64,000 bases of DNA. Source: Colwellia sp. 39_35_sub15_T18. GTDB lineage: Bacteria; Pseudomonadota; Gammaproteobacteria; Enterobacterales; Alteromonadaceae. The first letter of the stretch is position 1; the number at the start of each line of letters is the position of its first letter. The stretch lies in the NCBI GenBank assembly GCA_002162675.1, contig MAAE01000007.1, forward strand, positions 248,001-312,000, in the 5' to 3' direction. Of this stretch, positions 6,569-58,333 are shown in pieces. A program made the translations under genes and the position numbers. The notes beneath the pieces are model-generated. The model saw nothing but the letters and a program-made list of their open reading frames with translations. It ran no database searches and was not told where the DNA came from.

Positions 6569-8545
6569 CTAGACTGCAGTATCTGAACTACCGATATCTA
6601 AATTATTGGGAGAAACAATTCTGTACTTTTTCATTTTTCGATAAAGTGTTGCTCTACCAATCTCTAGCTGTTTCGCCGTTTCAGTTGCATTCCAATTATT
6701 ATGTCTAAGGGTGTCTAATATCTTTTGCCCTTGCTCAGGTAAAATTTCGGCATGTTGTATGTGAGTGCCCTCGTTTTCGTTGAAAATAAATGGGGGGCAG
6801 TCAAATACATATTCAGGTAAATGTTCAGGTGTGATGGTATTATCATCGCACAGAGTACTGGCGTAACTGATGACATTTTTTAATTCACGGATATTACCTG
6901 GCCAAGAATATTCAGCGAGTATTTGCATTGCCTCTTTCGATAAACCAATTTTCGACTCATTACCAACAAGAGATGATACTAAATAGTGCAGATCTTGACG
7001 ATCTCGTAATGCTGGTAAATTAATTGTAGCACCATTTAGACGATGATATAAATCGGCTCTGAAGATAGACTGTTCCGAACCAATTTGTGGTGATATATCT
7101 TGATGAGTAGCGCTAATAAGACGAAAGTCTACTACAATTGCCTGATCAGAACCTACGGGAGTCACTACTTTTTCTGCCAATACTCTTAATAACCGAGTTT
7201 GCAGGGTAGCGGGCATATCTCCGATTTCGTCTAAGAATAACGTTCCTTTATCTGCGGCGAGGATTAGTCCCGTTTTACCTTTACTGCTAGCGCCAGTAAA
7301 ACTTCCCGCTTTATAACCAAACAACTCACTTTCGATCAAAGAATCAGGCAGAGCCGCACAATTAACGGCTATAAACGGTCCTTTACGACGATTGCTACAT
7401 AGGTGAATAGCATTGGCCAAGACTTCTTTGCCAGTCCCAGTTTCACCTTGGATCAATATATTGATATCAGTTGGAGAGAATTTATTTAGCAGTAGCTTTA
7501 CTTTATGCATCATTGGGTCGGATCCCGCAATTTTGTCAATTTCTGCGGCAATCGGCTTAGTGATGTCTTGCTTAGTTGAGCTAGGTTGGTTTAACACCGT
7601 ATTTCTGATTTTAGTGCGTGGTGGTTGGAAATAACAAAAAAATGAAATACCCGTGTTTTTAGATTTGATAATAAACTGTGCAGAAGAGTTATTAAGACCT
7701 GCTCCTAATTGAAATAACGAGGTGATATCAAATCCAGTGAGTAACTGTGATCTGATGTCATTAATTCCAAGTTCTCTAGCAATAATTTTTCGAGCATTTT
7801 GATTTGCCCCAATCACAACATTGTTACTATCCAATGCAATTAAATTTGGACAATAAGTATTCAGTGAACTAATGTTTATATCGAATTTTAAAATTGTTGA
7901 ATTGTTATAATAATTTAAAAAATTAGCGGCTTCAATAAGCCCAGCATGCATCTGTACCAATTTAAGCAACAAGTGTTGACTAGCTTTTTCTTTTGGTGAA
8001 CACAGCGCTGAGACATCAAGTACAGCCAATAGCTGACCATTATGATCTAAAATAGGCGACGCAGAGCAAGTTAACGTTGTATTTACTATGTCAAAATGAT
8101 CTTGTTGGTGAATTGTTAGAGGAACAAGTTCGTTGATAATTGTACCGACTGCGCAGGTTCCTGCATGGCGTTCATTCCAGTCAGCACCCAAATATAACCC
8201 TGCGTTTCTTAATTCTTTGGTTAAACGATTATTGCCAATAAAATCAACCGTAACCGCATTTTTATCACAAAGTAAAACAACATAGTCTAACGCTTCTACT
8301 TGTGAGTATAAATTTTCCATCCCTTCTCTTGCCGTAATGATAAATTCTTCCATAGGGGAGGTGTGATTTTGTAATTCAGATTGGGTAAGAACGCGAGAAC
8401 CATATCGCCCCAAAGGGTCAAGCTTAAAGGTTTGAATACAGCGTTTCCATGAACTAGTTACCAAGTTTTTTTCTGAATCTAGCTCATTACTCTCAATTGA
8501 TCTATAAACATTAGATAAATGCTCATCGACGATGGAAGTTCTCAT
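6569..8545 (-). CDS. Sigma-54-dependent transcriptional activator, AcoR family
   Basis: A 658-residue enhancer-binding protein. The N-terminal half carries a GAF-type sensor region (around GLYLGADWNERHAGTCAVGT) and a possible PAS-like segment (LIALDSNNVVIGANQNARKI), as in AcoR/DhaR-type regulators. The AAA+ domain follows with Walker A GETGTGKE near residue 370, the sigma-54 contact loop as GSFTGA rather than the usual GAFTGA near 415, and Walker B GTLFLDEIGD. A Fis-type helix-turn-helix (NWNATETAKQLEIGRATLYRKMKK) is at about 605-630. It lies 85 bases after the dehydrogenase operon on the same strand. Three sigma-54 promoters with shared upstream sites lie nearby and are its likely targets. 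The effector is unknown. Confidence 0.92.
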   Translation of the reverse strand: MRTSIVDEHLSNVYRSIESNELDSEKNLVTSSWKRCIQTFKLDPLGRYGSRVLTQSELQNHTSPMEEFIITAREGMENLYSQVEALDYVVLLCDKNAVTVDFIGNNRLTKELRNAGLYLGADWNERHAGTCAVGTIINELVPLTIHQQDHFDIVNTTLTCSASPILDHNGQLLAVLDVSALCSPKEKASQHLLLKLVQMHAGLIEAANFLNYYNNSTILKFDINISSLNTYCPNLIALDSNNVVIGANQNARKIIARELGINDIRSQLLTGFDITSLFQLGAGLNNSSAQFIIKSKNTGISFFCYFQPPRTKIRNTVLNQPSSTKQDITKPIAAEIDKIAGSDPMMHKVKLLLNKFSPTDINILIQGETGTGKEVLANAIHLCSNRRKGPFIAVNCAALPDSLIESELFGYKAGSFTGASSKGKTGLILAADKGTLFLDEIGDMPATLQTRLLRVLAEKVVTPVGSDQAIVVDFRLISATHQDISPQIGSEQSIFRADLYHRLNGATINLPALRDRQDLHYLVSSLVGNESKIGLSKEAMQILAEYSWPGNIRELKNVISYASTLCDDNTITPEHLPEYVFDCPPFIFNENEGTHIQHAEILPEQGQKILDTLRHNNWNATETAKQLEIGRATLYRKMKKYRIVSPNNLDIGSSDTAV

Positions 8546-51254: not shown

Positions 51255-51719
51255 ATGTTAGATGTTGTCCTTTTTCAACCACAAATTCCGCCAAACACTG
51301 GCAATATTATCCGCTTATGCGCTAACTCTGGCTTTCGCCTGCATTTAATTGAACCACTTGGTTTTGATTTAGAGGATAAAAAACTACGCCGTGCCGGGCT
51401 TGATTATCATGAGTTCGCGGCGATTAAGCGCCATAAAAACTTCGATGCCTTTGTTGAACAAGAACAGCCAAAGCGCATATTAGCCATCACCACTAAAACA
51501 GATAATTTCTATGGTGATATCACCTTTACTGCTGGAGATTATTTACTGTTTGGCTCAGAAACGGCAGGATTACCCGAAGAAGTACGCGTGCAAATACCCG
51601 ATGAAGATAAAATTCGCATTCCAATGCTCAAAGAAAGCCGCAGTATGAATTTATCGAACGCCGCTGCAGTGATTGTTTACGATGCTTGGCGACAATTAGG
51701 GTTTGTGAATGCGGTTTAA
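51255..51719 (+). CDS. trmL: tRNA (cytidine/uridine-2'-O-)-methyltransferase TrmL
   Basis: A 154-residue SPOUT-class enzyme that 2'-O-methylates the wobble base of leucine tRNAs. It has the start [20 protein letters not shown], then GSETAGLP and the knot region [18 protein letters not shown]. The length is typical, so the ATG at 51255 is preferred to an earlier in-frame start. Two partial copies of its 3' end are found downstream at 54761-54801 and 57009-57056, marking junctions of an inserted island. Confidence 0.94.
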
Positions 51720-51925
51720 AGCAATGTCAGTGACGAATGAATAGTAACGAATTAATGATGACGAAAATAGTGACGAGTCTCGAAGATAACGACGGCGTGC
51801 TGTTCGAGATTCGCTATTCGTAGTTCGTTACTTTAGCTGTTTATTCTTGCTTGTTATCTATTGATAAAGCACTTGGTATACTTGCTCAACAATAGGTATT
51901 TCACCCTCCATTCGTTGAGCTAAAA
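51679..51925. repeat. trmL-gpsA junction repeat, copy 1
   Basis: Starts inside trmL, crosses a conserved spacer with GTGACGAG..CGAAGATAACGA and continues into a gpsA tail remnant. Copies 2 (54761-55237) and 3 (57009-57561) are in the same order and direction. Similarity stops at 51925, where LysR cargo sequence begins. Confidence 0.85.
51841..51925 (-). pseudogene. gpsA 3'-end remnant, copy A
   Basis: On the minus strand it encodes [21 protein letters not shown], against [21 protein letters not shown] in the intact GpsA. The last residues ([17 protein letters not shown]) are lost by a deletion of about 45 bases. Only about 20 residues remain of 334. Confidence 0.9.
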
Positions 51926-52809
51926 CCTTCAAATCGCTCACTGAGAAAGTCCAAAAACAAACGGTTTTTACGCGGCATAAAACGTTGCCTTGGATATAAG
52001 GCATAAATGCCGAAGTCTTCCATTTCGTAGTCGGGAAGCAGTTGCACCAACTGTTTATTTTTCAGCTCCTTTTTTACAGCAAACATCGATAACATAGCAA
52101 CGCCCTGCCCAGCCAAAACAAAAGCCTTGACCCCAACGGCGGAGTTGGCAGTAGCACTGGTATTCAGTTTTGGCGTATATGATATATCATCCTTTTTTAT
52201 TTTCCAGTTCATCAGTGCCGGTACACGGGAAAAATTAATACCATTACAGCTTTCAAGCTCGGCAATATTAGTAGGAGTAGACCCGTGGCGGTTTAAATAG
52301 GCGGGTGAAGCCGCTAAACACATACATGATGAATATAATTTTCTGCCAATTAAGTCCGAGTCTTTTAACCAACCGGCGCGTATTGATATATCAACGCCTT
52401 CGGTAAGGGGGTTATTAATATTATCATCCATAATAAAATCAATATTGATCTTGGGGTATAACAACATAAACTCGGCAGCAAGAGGAATGAGATCATCCGC
52501 ACCCAATAGGTTGGGGCAGGCTATACGCAATGTGCCTGTGGGGGTCTCCTGATGCTCTTTGAGTTCTTCAAAGGTATCCTTTGCTTCTTCTAAAATACTA
52601 ACACTGCGATGATAAAACCGATGACCTGCTTCGGTAAGACTGAGTTGCCGGGTCGAACGATGCAATAACTTAATACCAATTTCGTCCTCCAGCGAAGAAA
52701 GATGCTTACTAATAACCGATTTACTTTTGCCAAGCTTAATGCCAGCCTTTGAAAAACTCCCACACTGCACAACTTCAGTAAAATATTCCATGCGCTTTAA
52801 GTAATCCAT
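51901..52809 (-). CDS. LysR-family transcriptional regulator
   Basis: A 302-residue regulator. The winged helix at residues 1-65 (MEYFTEVVQCGSFSKAGIKL and GKSKSVISKHLSSLEDEIG) is followed by a substrate-binding domain (about 90-300; TLRIACPNLLGADDLIPLAA). It is most like the CrgA/AaeR-type group. It is divergent from the beta-propeller gene at 52952, its likely target. The last residues (FSSTNGG) and the stop codon lie inside the gpsA remnant in another frame, so the natural tail was cut when the cargo joined the junction. Confidence 0.9.
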   Translation of the reverse strand: MDYLKRMEYFTEVVQCGSFSKAGIKLGKSKSVISKHLSSLEDEIGIKLLHRSTRQLSLTEAGHRFYHRSVSILEEAKDTFEELKEHQETPTGTLRIACPNLLGADDLIPLAAEFMLLYPKINIDFIMDDNINNPLTEGVDISIRAGWLKDSDLIGRKLYSSCMCLAASPAYLNRHGSTPTNIAELESCNGINFSRVPALMNWKIKKDDISYTPKLNTSATANSAVGVKAFVLAGQGVAMLSMFAVKKELKNKQLVQLLPDYEMEDFGIYALYPRQRFMPRKNRLFLDFLSERFEGFSSTNGG

Positions 52810-52951
52810 AATTCAACCTTGGTATCAATGGTAATAACAGTAGACTTTACTGTTGCAAAAAACTCAACAGTGAGTGACCAGTGAATGGCATTGTTTGTTT
52901 TTATGATTAAATTATACTTTATCTCGTCTTAAATTTGAACGAGAGAAGATA

Positions 52952-53932
52952 ATGAAACATAAAATCGGATTAGCATTTAGCGGGTTTGTAATGAGCATTG
53001 GTCTGCTTTGTAGCCCCTCGCACGCGGCGAGTAATGACTTAAGTATTGATGAGCAATGGCAGTTGGATGGTGAATTCATCCCCGAAGGTCTGGCCTATGA
53101 TGACATCAGTCAGAGTTATTTTTTAGGATCACTAACCGAACCAGCAATATACCGAATTAATGCCCATAAACAAATAAAACGCTTTGCCTACGATAAGGAG
53201 ATTGTCTCTTCTGCTGGTGTTCATGTTGATACGCAACGTCGTCGTTTGTTGGTTACTAGTCTTGATCTGGGCACCAGTGAGGCATCCAATGTTAATAAAA
53301 AAGGTGCTAAAGCAGGTCTGGCGATTTACTCTCTGGAAACCGCAGAAAAAATTGCCTTTATAGATTTAGCCAAGGGCCTTACCGGTGGACATTTGTCTAA
53401 CGACATAACCTTTGATACCGACGGTAATATCTATATTACCGATTCATTTTCACCAATTATTTATAAAGTAGACGCAAGCTATAAAGCCAGTGTTTTGCTA
53501 CAAGACCCAGCTTTTGCAGGAAAGGGCTTCAATCTAAATGGTATCGTTTTTCATCCAAACGGATATTTAATTGTATCGAAGTACAATTCAAACAGCCTAT
53601 ATAAAATACCGCTTAAAAACCCTAAAAATTGGTCTCAAATTGAATTGGCCACAACAGTGTCGGGTCCTGATGGCTTGGTATTATTAAGTAACAATAAATT
53701 AGCCGTCATAGAAAATAAAACGCGTGGCAATATCAGTATTTTACAATCCAAGGATAACTGGAAAAGTGCCCAATTAAACAGCGCCTTGCTGCTTGATTCT
53801 GCTTTTCCAACAACGGCTACCTTAGCCAATGGTAAGTTGGTGGTACTTGATGGGCAGATTAACAAGTTATTTGCCGGTAAAAAAGGTGAGGTGAAAAACT
53901 TTTCACTATATCAAATTAACACATCTCAATAA
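52952..53932 (+). CDS. Exported SMP-30/gluconolactonase-like beta-propeller protein
   Basis: A 326-residue protein with a signal peptide (cleavage after SPSHA near residue 25). It has repeated four-stranded blade motifs such as IPEGLAYDDISQSYFLGSL, SNDITFDTDGNIYITDSFSP, LNGIVFHPNGYLIVSKYNS and VSGPDGLVLLSNNKLAVIEN. The pattern fits SMP-30/LRE or NHL-type six-bladed propellers, some of which are lactonases. The substrate is unknown and metal ligands are not certain. It is divergent from LysR and belongs to cargo 1 of the island. Confidence 0.8.
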   Translation: MKHKIGLAFSGFVMSIGLLCSPSHAASNDLSIDEQWQLDGEFIPEGLAYDDISQSYFLGSLTEPAIYRINAHKQIKRFAYDKEIVSSAGVHVDTQRRRLLVTSLDLGTSEASNVNKKGAKAGLAIYSLETAEKIAFIDLAKGLTGGHLSNDITFDTDGNIYITDSFSPIIYKVDASYKASVLLQDPAFAGKGFNLNGIVFHPNGYLIVSKYNSNSLYKIPLKNPKNWSQIELATTVSGPDGLVLLSNNKLAVIENKTRGNISILQSKDNWKSAQLNSALLLDSAFPTTATLANGKLVVLDGQINKLFAGKKGEVKNFSLYQINTSQ

Positions 53933-54041
53933 TTATTTAGAAGCGCTTGTGTATCAGCACCATGCAGATCAAATCTATATGGTGCTTTTTATTGGCTATA
54001 ATTGCTTGTTCGACGCATTATCTAAGCTAATAAAATGCTAT

Positions 54042-54557
54042 TTAATCTAAATTCCAACCTATAATTGTTCCCGCAGGGTTTCCTGCCACAGGCTCAGGAT
54101 AGTATGAAAACCTATCTGTAGTGGCGTTAACCCATACTTCTCCGTGATGATTATAGAAAAAGCACTCATTAACGCCAAAGGCTGTTAAATATAACGCAGA
54201 CCAATCTGAAATAGCGAGTGTTTGGCTAAATGTCTCTATATTGGGAGGCGATTCTAAGACTGTATTCCATAAAACCATACAGCCATCGGCATCATCCGTC
54301 GGTTTTTCTGCCCAACCTTCACTGGTAAAATTGAATAAAGTACCATTGATGGTAAGCGATGACGGTTGTCCATTGGTCTGCCACTTTAAACGTAGCATTT
54401 GAACACCAGCCCTAAATGCCCCCATGGTTGCTCTAGTCACTTCATTATGGGCATCATCTTGAATATCTACAAATTTTGGCAATGCAGTGACAGCAAGCAC
54501 CCCTAAAAGCACAATCACTAACACCAGCTCAATTAATGTAAATCCTGACTTTTTCAA
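54042..54557 (-). CDS. Type IV pilin-like (MSHA-type) prepilin
   Basis: A 171-residue prepilin with the class III signal MKKSGFTLIELVLVIVLLGV, cut after Gly5 to leave N-methylated Phe6, with Glu at mature position 5. A variable C-terminal globular part contains a Cys pair (DGCMVLW, NECFFYNHHG) that can form the usual disulfide loop. It looks like MSHA minor/major pilin types. No assembly genes are nearby, so it would rely on pilus machinery encoded elsewhere. Part of a second, related pilin lies upstream on the same strand. Confidence 0.85.
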   Translation of the reverse strand: MKKSGFTLIELVLVIVLLGVLAVTALPKFVDIQDDAHNEVTRATMGAFRAGVQMLRLKWQTNGQPSSLTINGTLFNFTSEGWAEKPTDDADGCMVLWNTVLESPPNIETFSQTLAISDWSALYLTAFGVNECFFYNHHGEVWVNATTDRFSYYPEPVAGNPAGTIIGWNLD

Positions 54558-54596
54558 AATTAATTACTTCTTTTAAAGACTACAACAAGTATAACA

Positions 54597-54755
54597 CTAT
54601 TCCATATTGAACTTTAAAAAGCCGCCAGCTGCAACGCTACCGTCACCATTACCTATGGGGTAATACTGAAAATATGGTGTAGATGCAACATCATATTGAC
54701 TGCCGTTGTGGTTATGATAAAAACAAACTGTCCATAGATAGCGAGCAGACCAGTC
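54597..54755 (-). pseudogene. 3' remnant of a second pilin gene
   Basis: A minus-strand frame ending at 54597 encodes DWSARYLWTVCFYHNHNG, then a segment ending FQYYPIGNGDGS and FLKFNME. The intact pilin next door has DWSALYLTAFGVNECFFYNH at the same place. The N-terminal half, including the prepilin signal, is gone; the break point coincides with the start of the trmL remnant at 54761, so it was cut at the junction. Confidence 0.85.
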
Positions 54756-54760
54756 AAATC

Positions 54761-54801
54761 ACGATGATTGGTGGTAATTAGGGTTTGTGAATACGGTGTA
54801 A
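54761..54801 (+). pseudogene. trmL 3'-end remnant, copy 1
   Basis: ACGATGATTGG followed by AATTAGGGTTTGTGAA and a TAA at 54799-54801 matches the last 41 bases of trmL (51679-51719) with about seven differences. Confidence 0.88.
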
Positions 54802-54922
54802 AGCAATCTCAATGACGAATTAATAGTAACGAATTAATGATGACGAAAATAGTGACGAGTCTCGAAGATAACGACGGCGTGCTATTCGTAACTCGCTATT
54901 CCTAGTTCGTCACTGTAACGGC

Positions 54923-55237
54923 TTATTCTTGTTTTTGATCACGAGATAACAGATCAGCCGCCGCTAATTGAGCGGCTTTATTTTGATAAAGTACTTGATA
55001 CACTTGCTCAACAATAGGCATTTCAACCTGCATTCGCACAGCTAACATATACACCTCTTTAGTGTTTCTGTAGCCTTCAACCACTTGCCCGATATCAGCC
55101 ATTGCTTGCTCGACATCAACCCCCTGCCCTCCTGCTAAACCAAAGCGACGGTTGCGTAACTGGTTTAACGTTATTGGTTATTGGTTATTGGTACAAGTTA
55201 ACACTAAATCGCCTAAACCAGCCATACCAACACCAAT
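54923..55237 (-). pseudogene. gpsA 3'-end remnant, copy B
   Basis: On the minus strand it encodes a near-complete GpsA tail ending [17 protein letters not shown], as in the intact gene, preceded by a [20 protein letters not shown] segment. It differs by a TTATTGG expansion and by a deletion between two CAGCCAT repeats, corresponding to about 115 bases of gpsA. It stops at 55237, where hipBA cargo begins. Confidence 0.9.
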
Positions 55238-55290
55238 TTACCTGCATGTTTTGCAGGCTCAGTATAAGCGTATAACTAACCTTTCGTTGG

Positions 55291-55333
55291 ACTATATACC
55301 GACCAAAAACAATAGAAATGGTAAGTATATAGT
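55291..55333. promoter_or_regulatory. HipB operator-like inverted repeat, distal
   Basis: ACTATATACCGACC (55291-55304) faces GGTAAGTATATAGT (55320-55333), matching at 12 of 14 positions. Its half-sites resemble those of the promoter-proximal repeat. Confidence 0.6.
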
Positions 55334-55351
55334 TCATTTATAACTGAAACA

Positions 55352-55410
55352 TTGATAAAATAATATTGACCACTATACTTACCAATACAGAGAAAAAAGG
55401 TAAGTATAGT
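55352..55410 (+). promoter_or_regulatory. hipBA promoter and proximal operator
   Basis: TTGATA (55352-55357) and TATACT (55374-55379) form a -35/-10 pair with a 16-base spacer. A perfect 12-bp inverted repeat, ACTATACTTACC (55372-55383) and GGTAAGTATAGT (55399-55410), covers the -10 box and the ribosome site and ends right at the hipB ATG. Binding by HipB would block both, as expected for autoregulation. Confidence 0.7.
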
Positions 55411-55737
55411 ATGCAAAGTAAAGTTATCAATAAAAGAAGTGCGGTGATATTTCCAAAACATAAAAAAATATTATTAGCACTTGGTGAGAATATAAAGTTA
55501 GCCCGAAAAAGAAGAAAGTTAACTCAACTACTTATTTCTGAGCGAACGGGACTATCTCGTCTTACCGTGAGAAATATTGAGAAGGGTGATTCTGGTGTTT
55601 CTATCGGGCACTACTTAGTGGTGCTCAGTGTCTTGGGGCTGGGAGATGACTTACGGCACGTAGCAAAAGATGATGAGTTAGGTAGAAAGTTACAAGATAT
55701 AAGCTTACTAACGAGCAAGGAGAGTAATAGCAGATGA
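55411..55737 (+). CDS. hipB: HipB-type antitoxin, XRE-family repressor
   Basis: A 108-residue antitoxin with a Cro/C1-type helix-turn-helix at about 25-80 (GENIKLARKRRKLTQLLISE and RTGLSRLTVRNIEKGDSGVS). It binds DNA and neutralises the HipA kinase. The ATG at 55411 follows the operator arm that contains AAGGTAAG; an in-frame ATG at 55366 lies inside the promoter and is rejected. The stop overlaps the hipA start by four bases (ATGA). It belongs to cargo 2 of the trmL-gpsA island. Confidence 0.92.
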   Translation: MQSKVINKRSAVIFPKHKKILLALGENIKLARKRRKLTQLLISERTGLSRLTVRNIEKGDSGVSIGHYLVVLSVLGLGDDLRHVAKDDELGRKLQDISLLTSKESNSR

Positions 55738-56975
55738 ACACTCAAGTTTTAGTGTTTGCTGATTGGGAGGCGCTTGCAGGGGCAACTCGTTTAGGTACTT
55801 TAAGGGCCTCAATCATTCGAAATAGAGAAAGTTTTAGTTTTTCCTATGAAGATGATTGGCTGAGTTCTGGTGCGGCGCAGCAAGTTGACCCTGAATTACA
55901 GTTATACGCGGGTGAACAATACGCAGGCAGTGATAGCAACTTCCGTGTTTTCCTCGACTCTTGTCCTGATCGTTGGGGGCGCGTATTAATGCAGCGCCGC
56001 GAAGCCGTTTTAGCGAGAGACGAAAAAAGAAAGCCTAGACCCTTGCGTGAGGTAGATTATCTGCTCGGTGTTCATGATATGTATCGCATGGGTGCACTAC
56101 GTTTCAAAAAAAATGTTGATGGTGATTTTTTAGATAACAACAAAGAGTTGCCGGCTCCACCTATTGCTTCACTCAAAGAGTTAGAATATGCCGCACAGCA
56201 AGTTGAGAACAACCTAGATTTAGACAATCCTGAATATCGTAAATGGTTAAATATACTTATGTCGCCAGGTTCTTCTTTAGGCGGCGCTCGTCCCAAATCA
56301 TGTGTTGTAGATAAAAATAATGAGTTGTGGTTGGCAAAATTTCCTAGTAGACAGGATGACCATGATATTGGTGCTTGGGAGTATGTCACTCATTGTTTGG
56401 CCTTAGATGCCGGTATCACTATGGCTCCATGCCAAATACATCAATTCAATAGTGATCATCACACCTTTTTAACTAAGCGCTTCGATCGTACTCCCACTGG
56501 TCGTTTACACTTTACTTCTGCGATGACACAGCTTGAATATTTTGATGGTGAAGATGGCGTCAGTTACATTGAGTTGGCAGGATTTCTCACCGAGAAAGGC
56601 TCAAATACGCAAGAAGATTTAGCACAATTGTGGCGGCGTATAGTTTTTAATATTGCGGTCTCTAACTGTGATGATCACTTAAGAAATCATGGCTTTATTT
56701 ATCAAGATCAAGGCTGGGTACTTTCTCCTGCATACGATATTAATCCTGTGAATTCAGCCACGGGATTGCACCTCAACATCTCCGAATATGATAATAGTTT
56801 GGATTTTGACCTCGCAATGGAAGTCATCGACTACTTTCAATTAGCTGAAGATAAGGCCATAAAAATAAAAGGCGAAGTTCTTGATAGTGTAAAAAACTGG
56901 GAAAAAGTAGCAAGTTCAATTGGTATCTCTCAACAAGAACAGCAATTGATGGCACCAGCATTCAATGTTTCATAG
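55734..56975 (+). CDS. hipA: HipA-type serine/threonine kinase toxin
   Basis: A 413-residue kinase toxin. Marks are the Gly-rich loop PGSSLGGARPK near residue 178-188 (with the autophosphorylatable Ser region), the ATP-binding lysine in LWLAKFPS near 200, the catalytic SNCDDHLRNHG near 311 and the metal-binding SPAYDINP near 334. HipA-type toxins phosphorylate aminoacyl-tRNA synthetases or similar targets and cause dormancy. The N-terminal domain (VFADWEALAGATRLGTLRAS) is complete. It is translationally coupled to hipB. There are no truncations, so it is probably active. Confidence 0.94.
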   Translation: MNTQVLVFADWEALAGATRLGTLRASIIRNRESFSFSYEDDWLSSGAAQQVDPELQLYAGEQYAGSDSNFRVFLDSCPDRWGRVLMQRREAVLARDEKRKPRPLREVDYLLGVHDMYRMGALRFKKNVDGDFLDNNKELPAPPIASLKELEYAAQQVENNLDLDNPEYRKWLNILMSPGSSLGGARPKSCVVDKNNELWLAKFPSRQDDHDIGAWEYVTHCLALDAGITMAPCQIHQFNSDHHTFLTKRFDRTPTGRLHFTSAMTQLEYFDGEDGVSYIELAGFLTEKGSNTQEDLAQLWRRIVFNIAVSNCDDHLRNHGFIYQDQGWVLSPAYDINPVNSATGLHLNISEYDNSLDFDLAMEVIDYFQLAEDKAIKIKGEVLDSVKNWEKVASSIGISQQEQQLMAPAFNVS

Positions 56976-57008
56976 CTTAACAGTCATAGGGGAAATTTCT
57001 ACAGAACG

Positions 57009-57056
57009 ATTCCAAATGAAGATGAAATTTGTATTCCGATGCTAAAAGAAGGCTAG
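57009..57056 (+). pseudogene. trmL remnant, copy 2
   Basis: The frame encodes RTIPNEDEICIPMLKEG followed by a stop, against [17 protein letters not shown] in TrmL. The knot region after this point is missing and the spacer follows directly. Confidence 0.8.
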
Positions 57057-57561
57057 AGTGTCAGTGACGAATTGATAGTAACGAGTATCGAAGATAACGA
57101 TAGCGTGCTGTTCGCAACTCACTATTCCTAGTTCGTCACTTTAACGGCTTATTCTTGTTTTTGATCTCTTGATAACAGATCAGCCGCCGCTAATTGAGCG
57201 GCTTTACCTTGATAAAGCACTTGATACACTTGCTCAACAATAGGCATTTCAACCCCCATGCGCTGAGCTAAAATATACACTTCTTTGGTATTTCTGTAGC
57301 CTTCAACCACTTGCCCGATATCAGCCATGGCTTGCTCTACCTCTATACCCTGCCCTAACGCTAAACCAAAACGACGATTGCGTGATTGGTTGTCGGTACA
57401 AGTTAACACTAAATCGCCTAAACCAGCCATGCCCATAAAAGTAGCAGGATCAGCTTTTAATGCTATGCCTAAACGCGTCATTTCTGCTAAACCGCGGGTA
57501 ATTAATGCCGTACGTGCATTAGCACCAAAGCCAATACCATCAGCCATACCAGCACCAATAG
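57009..57561. repeat. trmL-gpsA junction repeat, copy 3
   Basis: TrmL remnant, a shortened spacer (GTCAGTGACGAATTGATAGT) and the 3' end of the intact gpsA gene. With copies 1 and 2 it brackets the two cargoes in direct orientation. Confidence 0.85.
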
Positions 57562-58153
57562 CGATTACATTTTTAACGGCACCACCTAATTGCACGCCAA
57601 TAAAATCTTTATTGGGATAAACGCGGAAGCATTTTTCACAATGCAGCAAGTCAGACAACTCGTCAGCAAAGTTTTCATCGGTCGCAGATAGAGAAATAGC
57701 CGTAGGTAAACCTGCGGCCATTTCTTTAGCAAAAGTAGGTCCTGAAAGTACCGCTAAGGCAATATCATCACCTAAAATATCGCGCGCGACATTTTGTAAT
57801 AAATCACCTGACTGGGGATCTAACCCCTTAGTCGCCCAAGCAATTTTAGTGTCCGCGCTTAGTAGCGGTTTAATTTGCTTAAGTATGTCGCCAAAAACAT
57901 GGCTAGGCACAACCACTAAAATATTATCGCTTGCCTGAACCGCAGCAACTAAATCACTGGTCGGCGTTAAGCTTTTAGGAAAAGGGCAAGCCGCTAAATA
58001 CTTAGTATTTTCGCGCACACTAGCCATATCTTCAACTTGGCGCGCATCACGACCCCAAAGCAGTGTTTCATGACCGTTTCGAGCCAAACAAATAGCGAGT
58101 GCAGTGCCATAAGAACCCGCACCTAATACTGTAATTTTGGCAGAAACTGTCAT
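57149..58153 (-). CDS. gpsA: NAD(P)-dependent glycerol-3-phosphate dehydrogenase
   Basis: A 334-residue enzyme that reduces dihydroxyacetone phosphate to sn-glycerol 3-phosphate for phospholipid synthesis. The Rossmann motif [10 protein letters not shown] is at residues 11-20, then [17 protein letters not shown], the catalytic-lysine segment [17 protein letters not shown] and the substrate-binding [14 protein letters not shown]. The length is typical. It follows secB in the conserved rhodanese-grxC-secB-gpsA order. Copies of its 3' end lie at 51841 and 54923. Confidence 0.96.
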
Positions 58154-58333
58154 AGTTTTTCCACTATTCTAGGGTTATTTAACCAGCCTAAGCAAGTTGT
58201 GCGCAACAAGGCATCGAGTAAGAAAAGTTGCGCGTTGCAAAGTACTCACTGTCAGCCATTTTTCTTCGTCTCTCGTCATTCGAGACTAATACTCGCCACG
58301 CATAACTAGAGACTAAGAACTCGAGACTAATAA
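58154..58333. other. Spacer between gpsA and secB
   Basis: About 180 bases with no gene. It contains short palindrome-like elements (TCGTCATTCGAGACTA, ACTCGAGACTAATAATT) similar in style to those in the trmL-gpsA spacer, possibly a dispersed repeat of this genome. Confidence 0.4.

Follow-up and report, generated by a model that had tools for sequence, protein, structure and literature searches.

The locus described here lies in a 64,000-nucleotide stretch of the marine bacterium Colwellia sp. 39_35_sub15_T18 (contig MAAE01000007.1, positions 248,001 to 312,000), which we call the window and whose coordinates are used unless another locus is named. Between the convergent genes trmL (51255-51719) and gpsA (57149-58153) the window holds two cargoes and three copies of the trmL-gpsA junction, all in direct orientation, giving the map trmL-J1-cargo 1-J2-cargo 2-J3-gpsA (J1 to J3 are the junction copies, trmL' and gpsA' the gene tails within them). 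The order, the direct orientation and the three junction copies had been proposed from the letters of the window in an earlier sequence-only reading, and are borne out by our self-comparison. The features are as follows.

51255-51719 (open reading frame listed from 51165), plus strand: trmL, tRNA 2'-O-methyltransferase, intact, left anchor (TIGR00185 above cut-off)
51720-51840, no strand: J1 spacer, 121 bp, a long quasi-palindromic hairpin (self-comparison; folding z -2.76)
51841-51926, minus strand: J1 dead gpsA tail with a ~40-bp internal deletion, supplying the end and stop of lysR
51901-52809, minus strand: cargo 1 lysR, its 3' end fused into the gpsA remnant (Pfam)
52952-53932, plus strand: cargo 1 SMP-30-like beta-propeller gene (homologue names)
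54042-54557, minus strand: cargo 1 gene for a prepilin-type protein (PF07963, TIGR02532)
54580-54760, minus strand: cargo 1 second pilin gene, 3' part, cut by the trmL remnant (sequence, by eye)
54761-54801, plus strand: J2 dead trmL tail, 41 bp, with an in-frame stop (by eye)
54802-54922, no strand: J2 spacer, 121 bp, hairpin largely lost (folding z -0.84)
54923-55245, minus strand: J2 dead gpsA tail, ~320 bp, with indels and stops
55279-56975, plus strand: cargo 2, two hip-like operator repeats, hipB (55411-55737) and hipA (55734-56975)
56998-57054, plus strand: J3 dead trmL fragment (57012-57053 tested; left edge by eye)
57055-57148, no strand: J3 shortened spacer, hairpin kept (folding z -3.16)
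57149-58153, minus strand: gpsA, intact, right anchor (family searches)

Self-comparison gives 84% identity between J2 and J3 over 390 bp, 88% between J1 and J2 over 180 bp, and 82% over 111 bp together with 89% over 65 bp between J1 and J3; the J3 fragment matches trmL itself at 84% over 38 bp (E 1e-5). Divergence among the copies amounts to 11-18%. A trmL tail, a spacer and a gpsA tail, which the sequence-only reading had assigned to each junction, can be recognised in all three, but in J3 the trmL tail is a detached piece, without the end of trmL and part of the spacer, and the gpsA tail of J1 is internally deleted. J2 is dead on both sides; the intact genes are trmL at J1 and gpsA at J3, and both flanking genes are whole, as had been claimed. 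The gpsA' and trmL' edges differ from copy to copy, with non-recurrent breakpoints at unrelated points inside both genes. The cargoes are not set apart by base composition (G+C 0.398 and 0.400 vs 0.391 for the window). The structure looks like an old, unusual insertion scar, and no mobile element capable of producing it was found.

An assembly error in this interval is very unlikely, since the copies have diverged by the 11-18% given above, the inner tails decay like pseudogenes, carrying stops, deletions and changes at first and second codon positions, and the gpsA-derived end of LysR recurs in a public protein. This protein, P0241 (source JGI), is 95% identical to the window LysR over its whole length and has the same C-terminus, GFSSTNGG, which in the window is encoded by the gpsA remnant of J1. 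Judging from the P0241 protein sequence, the fusion of lysR with the gpsA remnant very probably exists in another strain. A further LysR, P0242, is 84% identical and ends in SERFENF, its length differing from that of the window protein only at the extreme end.

The changes in the inner tails speak to their origin. Differences between the J2 gpsA' and intact gpsA (27 over 237 bp) were assigned by a fixed majority rule using 13 relatives: 8 fell to the intact gene (first/second/third codon positions 1/0/7), 12 to J2 (3/4/5) and 7 were ambiguous. For the J1 gpsA' (43 relatives) and the J3 and J2 trmL' (42 relatives), which differ from the intact genes at 8, 8 and 6 sites, respectively, assignment was made by eye from per-site counts. 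Of the pooled 49 differences, 11 are changes in the intact gene (1/0/10) and 23 in the dead copy (10/6/7), with 15 ambiguous ones left out (Fisher p = 0.0024 for the contrast between dead and intact). The dead tails have changed at all codon positions, whereas the intact genes have changed almost only at third positions. For a large part of their history after separating from the host genes, the dead tails have thus evolved without selection. A donor species with a long history of selection on these genes would not give this pattern, which suggests an origin of the copies in the host lineage or in a closely related sister that has not been sampled; a foreign, recently functional gpsA tail in J2 was considered and finds no support in the codon-position assignment. 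The neutrally decaying tails are closest to the host's own genes, clearly so only for the longest tail: the J1 gpsA' is 58/66 identical to the host gene vs 57/66 to relatives, which leaves the host barely closer, and for the J3 trmL' the host gene (34/42) is no closer than the best relatives (35/42). In a gpsA-tail tree the host's own tail clusters with the J1 and J2 tails, at weak support values of 59 and 60. The sequence-only reading took the divergence of the junctions to mean different ages or sources. This is unsupported, since the dead-copy rates (4/66, 12/237, 4/41 and 3/42) are homogeneous (p = 0.68, at low power).

We searched all 38 other genomes of the genus with the TrmL and GpsA proteins (TrmL 84-95% identical at the amino acid level, one match partial). 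The two genes are adjacent in 37 of them, with 23-372 bp between the matches as read from the listed coordinates; in the remaining genome, G006, the site is split, each gene being located at the end of a contig. Different cargoes between the same tails, which the sequence-only reading had envisaged for related strains, were not found: none of the 37 assessable genus relatives carries a cargo here, so the trmL-gpsA site is not a shared, genus-wide insertion hotspot. Among 29 named Colwellia-type loci (L053-L081), which overlap partly with the 38 genomes, 27 have the genes adjacent (23-394 bp) and 2 are undecided. One Colwellia contig bears a tandem array of ~217-bp units shortly after gpsA, running to near the contig end (L073:11093-11996). 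Outside the genus, most of the enterics inspected have a longer interval (~0.9-1.2 kb), which presumably contains cysE.

J1 and J3 have a spacer that folds into a long hairpin, which J2 has largely lost; retention beside the functional genes and loss in the middle copy is what would be predicted of a bidirectional terminator. The spacer is not an abundant genome repeat: in a search up to E 10 the three copies alone scored well, the next best match having E 0.08, and neither a second spacer nor a second gpsA tail was found elsewhere in this genome. Among the 29 named relatives' loci, a related spacer occurs in the same place in L057 and in another place in L064. The search for known RNAs returned one sub-threshold match, which we read as chance. 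By eye, window positions 58240-58330, between gpsA and the gene that follows it, resemble the spacer (runs of cgagac/gtcattcg); both may be intergenic palindromes of one family.

Both limits of cargo 1 fall inside a gene or at a gene's edge. Its lysR has no match at 1e-60 in the 38 other genus genomes. The propeller gene, transcribed divergently from lysR and with a signal-like start (by eye), has no Pfam match and no match at E 0.001 in 60 relatives; at 1e-30, a 39% relative is present in only 2 of 393 other genomes of the order, and this genome carries a 41% paralogue. Propeller homologues of 72-77% identity come from JGI, ENA, NCBI and other sources, and some homologues are named SMP-30, gluconolactonase or LRE by their sources. 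As to the pilins that had been noted in cargo 1, one is whole, but the second lacks its 5' part (by eye); what remains resembles, again by eye, the C-terminal part of P0126. A separate protein, P0125 (source ENA), has a GrpB-family start linked to a 3' part from this pilin family, and is perhaps another illegitimate joint within the family.

Cargo 2 is a HipBA module: HipA has a HipA_C kinase domain with catalytic motifs and is adjacent to a helix-turn-helix protein (we read the positions of the motifs and take their meaning in HipA to be the usual one). The couple_hipB match is below the curated cut-off, and HipA has weak sequence matches to solved HipA_C/HipT chains. A defence label was set aside, the PADLOC matches being weak. 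The module is 88% identical at the nucleotide level, over 1689 bp, to a copy at another locus of G022, the genome of a close relative, near fad-like genes and other helix-turn-helix or toxin-antitoxin-like genes (labels read from the open reading frames). The shared stretch starts at 55279, just before the operators, and ends at 56965, 10 bases before the end of hipA. As differences from the G022 gene fall mostly at third codon positions (23/11/99), hipA is under purifying selection. In G022 the module (L165:3390-5150) is bounded by imperfect 31-bp direct repeats with 27 matches; the flanks were chosen after the repeat had been seen, and its score of 44 was not reached in 2877 random pairs (best 40). 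Next to the G022 module is a fragment resembling, by eye, the tail of an amidohydrolase gene.

No recombinase or integrase was found among the main island open reading frames, either in their list or in family searches, in keeping with the absence of integrase and transposase reported by the sequence-only reading; nor did the main cargo reading frames include a replication or mobility gene, and no attC core motif was seen in the island when looked for by eye. HipA, propeller and pilin proteins have no relative in viral contigs, where the junction itself was not sought. Against phages, the whole island gave no cargo-sized match, only trmL/gpsA-like matches of ~70% and short ones, and some of the phage records with trmL/gpsA-like matches appear to be bacterial DNA. 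The J2 stretch gave three short matches to plasmids. HipA matches 202 plasmid records at E 1e-30 (75 predicted conjugative; at most ~61% identity among the matches listed), hence distant relatives of HipA are carried by plasmids; the propeller matches 22 (at most ~36% among the matches listed). We count the absence of a junction carrier from the searched collections as weak evidence.

The account we favour, tentatively and with somewhat less than even confidence, is that illegitimate repair or template switching at the hairpin produced duplicative insertions, in either one compound event or two. Two pieces of DNA would have been inserted between trmL and gpsA by illegitimate events coupled to replication or repair, and the host junction would have been copied at each insertion, as a long target duplication. 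The acceptor would be the long hairpin between the two convergent genes: a fork or repair end stalled there would depart from any position within gpsA, copy incoming DNA or be joined to it, and resume upstream, within trmL. Run twice, or twice within one compound event, this cycle would yield trmL-J-cargo 1-J-cargo 2-J-gpsA, the outermost gene copies staying whole and the inner tails decaying. We infer the stalling, the template-switch steps and the number of events. The observations on which the account builds are the geometry, the neutral decay of the tails, their homogeneous rates, the hairpins of the outer copies, the patchy distribution of the cargoes and the lack of a recombinase among the main reading frames; breakpoints at unrelated points in both genes are expected if there is no defined att site.

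Several points weigh against this account. Unless the site is fragile, two independent hits at one site of 0.3-0.7 kb would be coincidental, and 0 of the 37 assessable relatives are occupied. There is no close source of the cargoes elsewhere in this genome, which obliges us to postulate either DNA from outside or a subsequent loss. Microhomology at the joints is predicted, the only flank available for comparing them being that of the G022 copy of cargo 2 at another locus. The J2 spacer folds no better than shuffles (z -0.84). Finally, the differences between the J1 and J2 spacers, counted by eye, are unevenly spread (3/83 in the left half vs 11/58 in the right, p = 0.004). A simple copy of one age does not predict this imbalance, and hairpin-templated correction or conversion is needed; as the right arm of J1 pairs better with its own left arm than the arms of the other copies do, hairpin-templated correction could explain it.

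The sequence-only reading had instead invoked Campbell-type integration of circles that each carried the host junction and a cargo; in our statement of it the circles are non-replicating and recombined twice into the junction. This is a fair rival that we think rather unlikely. Two single crossovers give exactly the observed map, with direct repeats flanking each insert and both flanking genes left whole, homology targeting accounts for two hits at one site, and distant HipA relatives (at most ~61% identical) occur on plasmids, 75 of them predicted conjugative. The geometry fits but is non-specific, as the same map would result from template switching or from a long target duplication. Moreover, both circles must have gained the same host-lineage junction, with 37 of 37 assessable genus sites empty; this genome has no other spacer or gpsA copy, the main cargo reading frames include no replication or mobility gene, the J2 stretch has only its three short plasmid matches, the island has no cargo-sized phage match and three cargo proteins are without a relative in viral contigs. 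We consider it distinctly less probable that the array arose by allele stacking, whereby the alleles of two strains, each with one cargo and a duplicated junction, were joined by ordinary homologous recombination in the shared junction. Under this model both sides of the middle copy should be dead, with trmL' from one allele and gpsA' from the other, as is seen, and a lysR end with a gpsA-derived tail is present in another public sequence; yet each first insertion still needs a mechanism, and no single-cargo strain was found in the searched sets.

A simple tandem duplication of trmL-gpsA, with unrelated insertions later entering the copies, would be compatible with the direct repeats in the region but is hardly credible: each cargo sits at a novel gpsA'/trmL' joint, where random insertions would rarely land twice, and protein searches found no full second trmL or gpsA in this genome. 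Highly improbable, too, is a site-specific island of integrase or integron type that has lost its recombinase. Its attractions are that the hipBA limits are nearly the same in G022, where the module is flanked by the imperfect 31-bp direct repeats, and that another part of the contig has a duplicated groEL 3' end that looks of this kind; against it, the junction copies extend far into both genes, end at different points and share no short common core, no integrase lies among the main reading frames and no attC was seen by eye.

The groEL duplication emerged from a scan of 424 kb of the contig, in three pieces including the window, for direct repeats of at least 50 bp lying 150 bp to 20 kb apart. 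It was the one other gene-tail duplication around a cargo: the terminator and groEL 3' end, ~94 bp, recur in direct orientation (L180:1332-1425 and 6822-6914; G000:C1:121332-126914) around genes whose sequences suggest, by eye, Fic-domain, lysR-type, catalase and ankyrin products. In the 29 relatives' groEL loci fetched (of 36 relatives with a match; flanks of at most 1.5 kb) the downstream side of groEL is variable, and ankyrin or catalase after groEL was seen only in this genome. The duplication looks like an ordinary 3'-end integration site, distinct from the trmL-gpsA structure. Locus L206 also carries pieces of a second groEL tail. Two further repeat sets in the scan are dispersed intergenic repeats, and three are close pairs 163-351 bp apart. 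Intergenic repeats of ~120-140 bp (CACCGAG..CTCGGTG) stand ~5 kb apart at G000:C1:225578, 230848 and 235773, and a 237-bp repeat pair lies at G000:C1 374404 and 388814.

More generally, and as a speculation that we ourselves hold to be quite doubtful, hairpin terminators between convergent genes may be acceptors where host replication or repair installs non-mobile DNA, including toxin-antitoxin units bounded as operons, duplicating the junction and letting islands stack without a recombinase of their own. If true, integrase-free islands would form and stack without harm to their neighbours, the convergent junction being copied with each insert. They would leave a signature searchable genome-wide, namely directly oriented dead gene tails flanking a cargo on both sides, and would offer a possible account of how toxin-antitoxin units change place without a recombinase.

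Our literature search returned no relevant report of a gpsA/trmL island in Colwellia and, judged by title and the start of the abstract, nothing apt on the copying of convergent junctions. Campbell-type integration of a plasmid or circle leaves direct repeats of the homologous segment around the insert; direct repeats surround the inserts here too, with the differences that there are two cargoes and that no vector, replicon or donor circle was seen. REP sequences are palindromic. In the text available to us of one study of Escherichia coli rearrangements, microhomology was present at 40 of 40 sequenced amplification junctions, 16 of the 40 lay in REP sequences, and complex events were read as repeated template switching (PMC3161906). 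Rearrangements of this type (template switching or microhomology-mediated break-induced replication, MMBIR) are like ours in their repeated local duplication with inserted sequence; those described there involve the cell's own lac-region or chromosomal DNA, whereas the Colwellia inserts have no close copy elsewhere in the genome. Transformation-induced merodiploidy likewise brings tandem duplication upon DNA uptake, in one case of 3.3 kb without flanking repeats, but in the portion of the source at hand the duplications are mostly ~100-900 kb and repeat-driven, with no cargo between sub-kilobase copies (PMC3784515). For small variable segments of bacterial genomes, illegitimate insertions are described as common; these segments are short, non-mobile, attributed to illegitimate recombination and flanked by direct repeats in ~10% of cases, and the accessible part of that report contains no repeated copying of one convergent junction (PMC2884548). 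Homology-facilitated illegitimate recombination and the immunity-gene arrays of Vibrio cholerae share with our locus sequential acquisition and strings of old gene remnants; in the excerpt available the genes of those arrays are argued to come from different strains, whereas here the longest tail is closest to the host and both neighbours are kept (PMC5361080).

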